Positions 43,368 through 46,300 of a DNA stretch of 64,000 nucleotides are shown piece by piece. The translations under genes and the position numbers were made by a program. How positions within the stretch are numbered: position 1 is the first letter of the stretch; each line of letters starts with the position of its first letter. Below the pieces are notes generated by a model, which did no database searches, had not been told where the DNA came from, and was given only the letters and a program-made list of their open reading frames with translations. Source of the stretch: Pararhizobium qamdonense. GTDB taxonomy: Bacteria; Pseudomonadota; Alphaproteobacteria; Rhizobiales; Rhizobiaceae. The stretch is taken from the NCBI RefSeq assembly GCF_029277445.1, contig NZ_CP119566.1, positions 572,501 through 636,500 of the forward strand, in the 5' to 3' direction.

Positions 43368-44073
43368 CCCGTTCCCCTTTTGTGCGGCACTATAGCTGGC
43401 GTCTCCTAAGATTTCATCTCCCGTATATTCGGGTGGCAGCTCTGATTGCGGCCATGGCGCGGCCTTCACGCGGCGCGGTTTTCGCCCGTGGTTTGTCTCA
43501 TCTGCAATGTCTGCCGGCTTTTAAGTACGGCAGGGTCGGCCGGGGCACATCGGGTGCCTCAGAGAGTTTAGTGTAGGCGACACACGATGTGCCCCGTTTC
43601 GGTGTCTTTTGCCGCGCTTCTCAGGTTCTTCTGCGCCTCCCGTTTGACCGAGAGGCCTCCAATGCCCCAGCCCGGCCGCTTATCCGCCAGGCTTTTCAAT
43701 GTGGCGGGGTTTCGCCCTGGGCTGTCATAAGACGGCGTGACGAACCCGGCACGCCCGGTTCATTGGCGAACCGGAGGAGAACCACCTTTCACGCAGCCCC
43801 GGGGATCTTGCGCGCGTTCCGCAAAACCGTCCGGGCACCGGCCCCACCTCGCCGGCAACGCAAACCGGTGTATCCGTGATGGGACGAAGTGAGTATGGCA
43901 CGGGTTTTGGGGAGCGGGGATTTTGGGGATGAAATTTTTTTGGTTGGGAGATCAGCCGAAGCGGATTTCGAGAACACATTTACAAATAGAAACTCCACCT
44001 TTTCGGGAGGAAATAAAAACCCTAGGTGTTAAGGCGAGAATCGTATTACTCAACCTATGGGAACGGGTTCACT
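43368..44073. other. Gene-free, palindrome-rich gap next to the accessory cassette
   Basis: About 700 bases hold no convincing gene. Two open frames, 43589-43879 forward and 43725-43979 reverse, overlap each other and look like chance or structure-driven frames. Several stems occur, such as CCGCCA/TGGCGG near 43690 and CAGCCC/GGGCTG around it. From about 43920 the DNA becomes AT-rich and leads into the cassette. Confidence 0.6.
43541..43596. repeat. 16-bp inverted repeat with a 24-base loop
   Basis: CGGGGCACATCGGGTG (43541-43556) and CACACGATGTGCCCCG (43581-43596) pair over 15 of 16 positions. No T-run follows on either strand, so it does not look like a simple terminator. It could be a structured RNA stem or a protein site. 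Confidence 0.85.
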
Positions 44074-44475
44074 ATGCGGAAGCTATACGAGCTGCTTAAA
44101 ATCGTGATTGGCGTTGTCGTCGGCGCGGGTCTTGTGGTATTTCTCAATGTAAATCTCCACCTATTTAACAGCGGAGCTGCGGTACAGACGATTGGCATGA
44201 GCTATGCCGACCTAGCCGCAATCAACTTGACCGTGGCCACAGTGGTATTAGGCGCTGTAGCTTTAATCGTCGGGGTTGTTGCCATATTCGGTTTCCAGAT
44301 CATCCGCGCGGAGTCCGTGTCAAACGCGGAAAAGCGCGTCTTGGAAGAGATGCCGGAGATACTGAAACGCGAGCTCGGGCGGATGGAAAAAAACGGCCAA
44401 CTCACCAGCGCGTTGGAACGAGCGCTGTACTCTGGTGGCTCGGAGGAGGATGATGGAGGAAAATCAGCCTCCTAA
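44074..44475 (+). CDS. Small two-helix membrane protein, cassette gene 1
   Basis: A 133-residue protein with no recognised family. Two hydrophobic segments (about 8-26 and 50-77) flank a short periplasmic loop. The remaining 56 residues are charged and probably helical (SNAEKRVLEEMPEILKREL), ending in an acidic Ser/Gly tail. This plan resembles membrane anchors of small defence or signalling modules, but no function is assigned. ATG 44074 was chosen; GTG 44026 is in frame but its ribosome site is 15 bases away. The ImmA/IrrE gene starts 24 bases after the stop. Confidence 0.65.
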   Translation: MRKLYELLKIVIGVVVGAGLVVFLNVNLHLFNSGAAVQTIGMSYADLAAINLTVATVVLGAVALIVGVVAIFGFQIIRAESVSNAEKRVLEEMPEILKRELGRMEKNGQLTSALERALYSGGSEEDDGGKSAS

Positions 44476-44499
44476 ATAAAGAAAGTAAGGGGTCACAAA

Positions 44500-45003
44500 A
44501 TGACAGCGGTAACAAAAGAGTGGCAAAAAATTAAACAGGCAGATCGGGAAACCGTGGCGAAGCATCTGAATGAGCTGCCGGTAAAGCTTGGGGCCCTAGC
44601 AAAAGACTTAGGGATAGATGTAAAGCTTTCGTCTCTCCCGCTTAACGTTTCAGGGCAAATTGCAAAAACGCCGACTGGATTTGAGATTAAAATCAATAGG
44701 CATGAAAGCCGCCAACGTCAACGCTTTACACTAGCGCACGAGATTGCTCATTTCCTCATCCACCGGGACGTCATAGAGCGGATGGGTGGGACACTTACGG
44801 ACAGCGTGCTTTACAGGTCCGGCGCGTCTGAAAGTATTGAATACGAGGCAAACCGCCTAGCGTCCCAGATTGTCATGCCCGAGCATGCCTTGAGAGCGGC
44901 ATATTCGAGATTTGGCGAAAACATTAGTGAGAGCGCGGTTGAACTCTTGGCAGAAGAGTTTGGGGTGTCGAAAGCCGCAATGGAAATTCGCATGGCAGCT
45001 TAG
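44500..45003 (+). CDS. ImmA/IrrE-family metallopeptidase, cassette gene 2
   Basis: A 167-residue zinc peptidase of the ImmA/IrrE type, predicted to cleave a regulatory protein. The zinc motif HEIAH is at 80-84 (FTLAHEIAHFLIH), followed by the third-ligand region IEYEANRLASQIVMP (Glu114/Glu116). The N-terminus is a short helical region rather than an XRE DNA-binding domain, so the target repressor or substrate is unknown. It lies 24 bases after gene 1 and 23 bases before the beta-family gene, and is probably co-transcribed with both. Lower GC than neighbours. Confidence 0.88.
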   Translation: MTAVTKEWQKIKQADRETVAKHLNELPVKLGALAKDLGIDVKLSSLPLNVSGQIAKTPTGFEIKINRHESRQRQRFTLAHEIAHFLIHRDVIERMGGTLTDSVLYRSGASESIEYEANRLASQIVMPEHALRAAYSRFGENISESAVELLAEEFGVSKAAMEIRMAA

Positions 45004-45026
45004 CGGTTAAAGGGTGATGATGGGCG

Positions 45027-46109
45027 ATGGCAGTTGAAGTGTCTAATCTGAATTATGTCCCAACGCTCGCGGTGCGATCGAGCGAAATGAACGGCTTAGA
45101 GAGGCTGCCTTCGGCTTCGAAAGATCGACTTCAGCCAAACTTCCTACTGGCCCCATGGCCCAACGCCACCGAGTTAATGCGGTCTATCGATCGCATTAAC
45201 AAGGCATTTCCAGCACGTTCCTTCTTCTTGGATATCGATCGAGACTATCAAATCACGAACATCGAGGTTTTGAGCCAGCAGCAATGGCTTGAGCTTCAGG
45301 ACCCTGCAAATTGTTTTGCGAACTGGGTGCGATTCATCGAAACCGTACCGAACGCCAGCCCTTGCTTGCAGATCACAGGTTTGAGCCGCGCAGAGATTGT
45401 GAACCAAATTATAGCTTTCCAAGAAATGGGGAGGACATATGCTCTCCGAATTGAACTTCAGAGGTTTCCTTCAAATCTCAGCGAAGCTATAGCGGCCCTC
45501 AATGAGGTTGGTTCCGCCGATTACGTGGTAATCGTCGATGGCGGCTGGATCGCTGATACGCAGCCCTCTCGCCTGCGTATTGCTAATCTTATTACAACAC
45601 AGCTTAGCGGTGTTGATGCCCAGATCCCATTTGTTGTCTCCTATACAACCATTCCAAAGGGGTTCGCTGAGGTCGAGGGAGCTGACTTCACGGCCTTCGA
45701 CAATCGTGAATTTCTCGCGGAACTCGGTCATCTTACGAACCGGCAGCGCATTACCTACGGTGACTGGGGCAGCACCAGGCCCCGTGAACATGGCATGGCG
45801 AGCCGTCCAAAACCTCGTATCGATCTTGCATTGCGTAGTGGGTGGCTATCTGCCCGAAACAAGTCTGAAGACTGGGATTTTGATGATGCTGCGCAAGTGG
45901 TGATGAATTCTCAGCAGTGGGAGCAGGTAGCTGGTCTAGGGGTTTGGGGCGAATTTATGATTCGCCAAACAGCTATCAGCCCGTCGTTAGGAATAAACTC
46001 TCCGCAAAAGAACGTTTCGGTCAGGGTGAATTTGCATCTGCATATTCAGGGATTCTACAACGATGGCGATATTCGAGGTATTAACCTTGACGAACAGTGG
46101 GAAGACTAA
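45027..46109 (+). CDS. Beta-family protein, cassette gene 3
   Basis: A 360-residue protein. The opening YVPTLAVRSSEMNGLERL (10-27), a central strand YVVIVDGGW (166-174) and the late motif YGDWGSTRPRE (244-254) followed by PKPRIDLAL (262-269) match what I recall of the beta protein family (Pfam Beta_protein), found in phages and bacterial accessory islands. The TIM-barrel-like alternation of strands and helices is an inference. The biochemical role of the family is not established. Coding sequence is clearly AT-richer than flanking core genes, consistent with transfer. Confidence 0.75.
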   Translation: MAVEVSNLNYVPTLAVRSSEMNGLERLPSASKDRLQPNFLLAPWPNATELMRSIDRINKAFPARSFFLDIDRDYQITNIEVLSQQQWLELQDPANCFANWVRFIETVPNASPCLQITGLSRAEIVNQIIAFQEMGRTYALRIELQRFPSNLSEAIAALNEVGSADYVVIVDGGWIADTQPSRLRIANLITTQLSGVDAQIPFVVSYTTIPKGFAEVEGADFTAFDNREFLAELGHLTNRQRITYGDWGSTRPREHGMASRPKPRIDLALRSGWLSARNKSEDWDFDDAAQVVMNSQQWEQVAGLGVWGEFMIRQTAISPSLGINSPQKNVSVRVNLHLHIQGFYNDGDIRGINLDEQWED

Positions 46110-46300
46110 TGTGTCTCCTGCGAGCGAATTTTTGTGAACGGTAAAACGCTGCTCTGAGACGATGCTGGAAAATGGCCACAATGTTTGTTTCTCCGCTCTC
46201 ATCGCATGCAACTCCAGCAAGAGACTTTTAGCCCTAAGATTATCACCGTCTTAAGTGCCCGTCTTCTACCGCCACAAAGCGGTCTCCGTTATCGCAAAGC

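Follow-up and report, generated by a model that had tools for sequence, protein, structure and literature searches.

We begin by considering the described systems that come closest to the locus of this study. The gop-beta-cII system of the satellite phage P4 protects against lambda and P1, and its gop is toxic without beta, as described in PMC9122126, which cites Ghisotti et al. 1990 for the toxicity. In the P4 locus, gop is the gene before beta and encodes 133 residues, with one hydrophobic helix found by script and a second found by eye. The convergent gene after beta is cII, a member of the sce7726 family, which on our reading of a motif and one weak match to VRR_NUC (E 0.029) may be nuclease-like. 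Neither the beta locus of P4 nor that of phage Pmp11 contains an ImmA gene.

The PD-lambda-2 system (PMC9519451) begins with a HigB-like gene, continues with a gene in which an HTH and a peptidase are fused, and ends with a relative of a P4 antitoxin. On its own the second gene (HTH-ImmA) is toxic, an effect that the first relieves, while the third is dispensable for neutralisation and required for defence. RosmerTA (PMC10440598) pairs an ImmA-domain antitoxin with various toxins, among them one that depolarises membranes. IrrE/PprI and CapP are ssDNA-activated peptidases that cut repressors, and in PprI this activation runs through a C-terminal domain (PMC10904395).

The three-gene cassette and its relation to known systems

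The locus lies in the window (the whole 64-kb stretch of DNA that was analysed) and consists of three genes on the forward strand. Gene 1 (44074-44475, 133 residues) encodes a two-helix membrane protein, the proposed toxin; gene 2 (44500-45003, 167 residues) an ImmA/IrrE (M78) zinc peptidase without an HTH; and gene 3 (45027-46109, 360 residues) a Beta_protein (PF14350), the proposed restraint and sensor. The intergenic gaps within this cassette (44074-46109) are 24 nt between genes 1 and 2 and 23 nt between genes 2 and 3. Its GC content is 0.509 (50.9%) versus 0.611 (61.1%) for the whole window, and the 3 lowest-GC segments among the 248 segments of 2036 bp in a GC scan are on the cassette. 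The GC3 values of genes 1, 2 and 3 are 0.62, 0.52 and 0.53, compared with 0.76-0.83 for the three flanking genes that were measured. These figures agree with the initial annotation, which had described three co-directional genes with gaps of about 23-24 bases, lower in GC and deviant in codon use relative to their flanks. One promoter-like and one terminator-like site are found at the cassette, which is no excess over shuffled sequences.

Gene 3 matches Pfam Beta_protein (PF14350) with an E-value of 2.8e-48 and the PADLOC beta model with 1.1e-44, and the beta of phage P4 aligns with it at 26.4% over 99% of the length (E 8e-24); judged by these matches, it is a homologue of P4 beta. The AF2 model (pLDDT 91.5, pTM 0.91) returns TIM barrels in fold searches, and a TIM barrel is predicted for gene 3 with high confidence. 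We assign no enzyme activity to beta, as many unrelated TIM barrels score alike in the fold searches; among PDB sequences, the beta family finds a single designed protein (E 0.59). Across 38 betas, including those of P4 and Pmp11, the residues E20, P37, P112, D246, S249, R264, D266, I312, R333 and N335 are invariant. In TIM barrels the pockets are located after the strands, and E20, D246 and S249 come after predicted strands, as placed by secondary-structure positions only.

Gene 2 matches Pfam Peptidase_M78 (E 7.5e-21), with no HTH model above the cut-off in the Pfam search, and its best PADLOC match is capP (E 5.2e-31). Its alignment with the structures of IrrE and CapP is confined to the peptidase region, and gene 2 has no extra C-terminal domain of their kind, so sensing should lie elsewhere. 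The zinc-binding motif HEIAH is read from the sequence at residues 80-84 (44737..44751, forward strand). This motif is present in 71 of the 71 ImmA proteins of relatives that were examined, at least five loci being counted twice, and therefore proteolysis should matter. For the third glutamate of the motif, one pattern fits 69 of the 71, and the other two were read by eye.

For gene 1, a hydropathy script places hydrophobic helices near residues 10-28 and 54-72, positions that are shifted because the script had used an ORF longer by 16 residues. The AF2 model has helices at 2-32, 44-106 and 109-120 (mean pLDDT 79), and together with the family alignment it gives a long cytoplasmic-type helix and an acidic C-terminus. 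No significant Pfam family is found for gene 1, and its family reaches an E-value of only 0.56 against PDB sequences. A kinship with known membrane effectors was considered and dropped, as the matches are weak and scattered: PADLOC Mem_02 is matched by 4 of 34 family members (best 4e-4), isolated members match 2TM-effector models at 0.004-0.009, gene 1 itself matches Csx27 at 0.019, and the Pmp11 gene preceding beta matches 8xMP at 0.02. The earlier descriptions of the three products thus hold, namely an unrecognised small membrane protein (two helices, no significant family), a zinc peptidase without a DNA-binding domain, and a protein resembling the beta family, the last by HMM search.

Like gop-beta-cII, the cassette has a beta homologue and a small membrane protein encoded upstream on the same strand. 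Unlike gop-beta-cII, it has an ImmA peptidase between gene 1 and beta and no cII, an ABC-F gene being the next one downstream; a search of the window's own genome for cII gives no NF033832 match at E <= 1. Gene 1 does not match the PADLOC gop model, which the Pmp11 gene at the same place also misses. No homology between gene 1 and gop is detected by hhalign (E 0.1 and 0.3), in a test of low power where even P4 gop and its Pmp11 counterpart barely align (E 0.17).

With PD-lambda-2, the cassette shares the count of three genes and an ImmA-domain protein directly before the PF14350 protein. The first gene of PD-lambda-2 is, however, HigB-like and its second carries an HTH, where the cassette has a membrane protein and an HTH-less ImmA. 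Among the corresponding PADLOC models, PD-Lambda-2_A is not matched by gene 1 at E <= 1, and PD-Lambda-2_B is matched by gene 2 (2.7e-07) at model positions 292-368 of 402 only. PD-Lambda-2_C is not matched by gene 3 at E <= 1, gene 3 being closer to the P4 beta model; the betas of P4 and of one related locus (L010) match it weakly. As a comparison, the three genes of another locus (L036) match PD-Lambda-2_A, _B and _C at 4.4e-27, 6.9e-185 and 9.7e-156.

RosmerTA (RmrA/RmrT) resembles the cassette in having an ImmA-family protein beside a toxin, one of its toxins being membrane-depolarising, and differs from it in that RmrA usually bears an HTH while gene 2 does not; beta goes unmentioned for RosmerTA in the available extract. 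Gene 2 matches the RmrA models over the peptidase part only (best E 9.7e-11). CapP of CBASS and IrrE/PprI belong to the same peptidase family as gene 2, but they are 291-301 residues long, compared with 167, and they cleave a repressor.

Strict membership in gop-beta-cII, PD-lambda-2 or RosmerTA is ruled out (no cII, no HigB, no HTH), and because the tested features of gop-beta-cII and PD-lambda-2 fail, the cassette is a variant and not a member. It is a mix of a P4-like front, a PD-lambda-2-like middle minus the HTH, and a beta common to both. In the open-licence literature we found no paper on the combination of membrane protein, ImmA and beta, in agreement with the initial annotation, which knew of no described system of exactly such composition; the parts and the logic are of known kind. 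Of that earlier interpretation, the single unit and the Beta_protein assignment stand, while the likeness to the phage-protective gop-beta-cII and PD-lambda-2 had been missed. Its peptidase-activated effector is still plausible, with ImmA as an antitoxin, after the manner of RosmerTA, as a rival.

Co-occurrence of the genes and their chromosomal slot

We choose a first collection of loci (set A) with the PF14350 profile alone, so that neighbouring genes play no part in the choice. The profile finds a match in 12 of 385 genomes drawn from the class, 13 of 398 from the phylum and 14 of 297 from the family, draws that overlap and that all include the window's own genome. The 42 distinct places reduce to 40, since three of them (L031-L033) are pieces of one broken locus; two more (L045 and L047, both in G778) may be one gene split over two contigs. 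Sorted by hand from the locus rows, a short ImmA with an upstream membrane protein is present at 17 of the 40 loci (the window's own included), and one further locus (L050) has an ImmA-like gene of 255 residues without the upstream membrane protein. Another 12 loci have a long ImmA protein (one of them, L022, doubtful), with an HTH in two of the four such proteins checked against Pfam. ImmA is absent from the remaining 10, of which L045 and L053 are cut by contig ends. A convergent cII-like gene lies within about 1.5 kb at 7 of the 17 short-ImmA loci. Among 24 relatives of the genus, beta matches occur in two, G009 (L011) and G013 (L012 and L013, weak and fragmentary).

For a second collection (set B), the query is an alignment of six ImmA-type betas; it yields 52 named loci and hence samples that clade. 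Some places are common to both sets (e.g., L062/L057, L064/L051, L079/L021, L102/L059, L092/L010). Two loci of set B (L084 and L111) are cut by contig ends, leaving 50 uncut loci, each of which has a short ImmA gene immediately upstream of beta. The membrane-protein gene above ImmA is called by script in 45 loci and by eye in five (L067, L080, L087, L091, L100). The one of L080 is displaced upstream by about 1.2 kb; L093 and L100 show a single helix and a shortened frame for beta. A cII-like gene accompanies one of the 50 uncut loci (L112). The triple is present on both IMG/VR contigs that were found, and also in other classes of the phylum (L037, L038, L043). Co-occurrence across genomes had been named in advance as the observation whose failure would speak against one system, and it is strong.

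The distance matrices of the three proteins correlate over 54 loci, with r of 0.89 for beta and ImmA, 0.90 for beta and the membrane protein, and 0.86 for ImmA and the membrane protein, where a fixed skip list leaves out duplicates, broken loci and some uncertain membrane-protein frames, and loci without a script-called membrane protein are left out as well. None of 999 permutations reaches these values, the best permuted r being 0.22. These correlated distances show that the genes are inherited as a unit; they do not show contact between the proteins. The membrane-protein gene and the ImmA gene overlap by 4 nt in 11 of the 54 loci.

We turn our attention to the borders of the cassette. The closest relative, from Rhizobium sp. 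18065 (L061), matches the window (E <= 1e-5) solely at 44033-46144 on the forward strand with 84.8% DNA identity, in a comparison with an 8.3-kb locus in which the module is flanked by 263 bp on the left and about 6 kb on the right. The locus of Agrobacterium larrymoorei (L062), for which the comparison took in 5-6 kb of either flank, has its only match at 44074-46109 (70.2%). Chance neighbours are ruled out by the co-occurrence together with these discrete borders, and the three genes form one unit.

A second genome of the same species (G1069, 99% complete) has the flanks at 97% DNA identity up to 43544 and from 46300 on, and no DNA match to the cassette. The variable slot, which runs from the GGDEF gene to the ABC-F gene (43545..46299, no strand), is occupied there (L145, 13039-14928) by two genes, the first for a ParA-like ATPase (AAA_31, E 3e-31) and the second for a protein with a SIR2 domain (SIR2_2, ThsA-like matches), the latter split over two overlapping frames. 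The one system of the initial annotation is borne out as an exchangeable unit. In G009, G014 and G017, the ABC-F gene adjoins the homologue of the window's 40.4-41.5 kb.

In G001, a gene for a D12 class adenine-specific DNA methyltransferase (L123, 560-1366) adjoins the ABC-F gene, and thus the slot may be a hotspot. An intergenic repeat of about 490 bp at 43463-43952 recurs three more times in the genome (90-94%), has copies in G1069 as well, holds a 16-nt inverted repeat (43541-43556/43581-43596), and is the place inside which the G1069 homology stops.

Copies of the cassette are also carried by a conjugative Neorhizobium plasmid, there with cII, and by a contig of a viral collection (L113) next to a serine-recombinase-like gene, the frames of the latter contig being read by eye. 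The ImmA of the plasmid copy (L017, 4471-4971) is missing from the gene table, which is incomplete, and its open frame is intact.

Possible mechanisms

It is probable that the cassette is a defence-type toxin-antitoxin system of some kind. The specific arrangement that we put forward tentatively, with somewhat less than even confidence, is a tripartite toxin-antitoxin acting by abortive infection, composed of a membrane toxin, a beta restraint and sensor, and an ImmA proteolytic switch; we infer the toxicity, the inhibition by beta, the cleavage target, the trigger and the role in defence, whereas the analysis itself establishes what the genes are, their co-inheritance and mobility, the conservation of the zinc motif, the predicted fold of beta and its homology to a component of two published defence systems. 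The putative toxin of gene 1 would insert in the inner membrane and depolarise it. Beta, a predicted TIM barrel with conserved polar residues, would keep gene 1 inactive and register infection. Lacking a sensor or DNA-binding domain itself, the ImmA peptidase would switch the system by proteolysis, cutting either beta or the cytoplasmic tail of the toxin and so freeing the toxin. The infected cell would then die or halt before phage release.

Several features count for this tripartite arrangement. Gene 3 is a homologue of P4 beta, in whose absence gop is toxic and whose system is phage-protective, and the position of P4 gop and that of gene 1 are both taken by a small membrane protein. PD-lambda-2, too, has a beta-family gene as its third, and its defence requires that gene. 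The co-inheritance (r 0.86-0.90), the 50 of 50 loci with ImmA before beta and the zinc motif in 71 of 71 point the same way, as do the absence from the peptidase of the extra domain of IrrE and CapP, the invariant beta residues, the SIR2-type insert in the slot, and the copies on a plasmid and on a recombinase contig. Against it are the lack of detectable gop homology in gene 1 and the 10 of 40 set-A loci without ImmA. P4 and Pmp11 do without ImmA, which makes proteolysis dispensable in some beta systems, and PD-lambda-2, whose beta relative is dispensable for neutralisation and whose ImmA component is toxic, is a poor fit to a simple beta antitoxin.

Alternatively, and with considerable doubt, the order of control may be that of a protease-gated membrane killer, where beta would sense an infection product through the conserved polar residues of its barrel and activate ImmA, which would free a two-helix pore. 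If this is the case, Beta_protein would be a common sensor that is combined interchangeably with various killers (membrane protein, HigB-like RNase) and with various formats of the peptidase, and gop-beta-cII and PD-lambda-2 would be two cases of one modular family.

Possible but rather unlikely is an arrangement after RosmerTA, in which ImmA is the antitoxin that continually cuts or binds the membrane toxin, the toxin acts once proteolysis stops, and beta has the accessory role of a sensor, halting ImmA on infection. The varied toxins of the RosmerTA ImmA-domain antitoxin, one of them membrane-depolarising (PMC10440598), speak for it, as do the RmrA matches of gene 2 over the peptidase part (best E 9.7e-11) and a PD-lambda-2 beta relative that neutralisation does not require (PMC9519451). 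Yet RmrA usually comes with an HTH, which gene 2 does not have, and P4 beta restrains gop in the absence of ImmA (PMC9122126).

The copies on plasmid and element-like contigs, the discrete borders and the toxin-antitoxin-like layout would also suit a selfish addiction module, one that keeps mobile elements stable and plays no part against phages. We regard this as improbable: in the window the cassette occupies a chromosomal slot by itself, and phage protection is reported for each of the two relatives with published tests (PMC9122126, PMC9519451). Hardly probable either is a cassette in which ImmA is the toxic component, gene 1 its membrane-anchored neutraliser and beta a cofactor for activation. 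The gene order is the same as that of PD-lambda-2, whose HTH-ImmA is toxic alone and rescued by the preceding HigB-like gene (PMC9519451), but that toxic protein has an HTH part missing from gene 2, and the toxic gene of P4 is the membrane protein gop (PMC9122126). A stress-response module, in which ImmA would cleave a repressor encoded elsewhere and the membrane protein and beta would modulate it, is very improbable, as the precedent of IrrE/PprI and CapP as ssDNA-activated repressor-cleaving peptidases (PMC10904395) is set against a unit without a repressor gene, a sporadic cassette (none in G1069; beta in 2 of 24 genus members, one weak) and a gene 2 without the domain that PprI needs for ssDNA activation.

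Whether as the tripartite system that we favour or in another of these forms, the cassette makes two questions testable: whether Beta_protein is the common sensor or restraint of these systems, and whether the ImmA peptidase is the trigger, the antitoxin or the toxin.

Other arrangements around beta

The cassette connects gop-beta-cII and PD-lambda-2, discovered in E. coli independently of each other, by a third arrangement, which is recurrent in the Alphaproteobacteria and also present in genomes of other classes of the phylum. In PADLOC-DB 2.0, gene 3 alone matches a model of its own kind (beta), while gene 1 lacks any strong model and the best match of gene 2 is capP; surveys with PADLOC-DB 2.0 would therefore probably overlook the system.

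Seven loci (L020, L023, L034, L039, L044, L046, L052) contain PF14350 with a convergent sce7726/cII-like gene, no ImmA being found there, and this combination is perhaps a fourth beta arrangement. In five others (L019, L035, L041, L048, L049), a long ImmA and beta are accompanied by a convergent cII-like gene, a layout that links the PD-lambda-2-like and the gop-beta-cII-like ones.

Two copies have apparently decayed. In G009, an in-frame stop interrupts the ImmA gene (L011, 2589-3086), and in G360 beta is in pieces (L031-L033). The locus of the MAG AqS3 (L091) may include a partial tandem copy, as a second ImmA gene precedes the cassette there, about 1.2-1.8 kb before beta.
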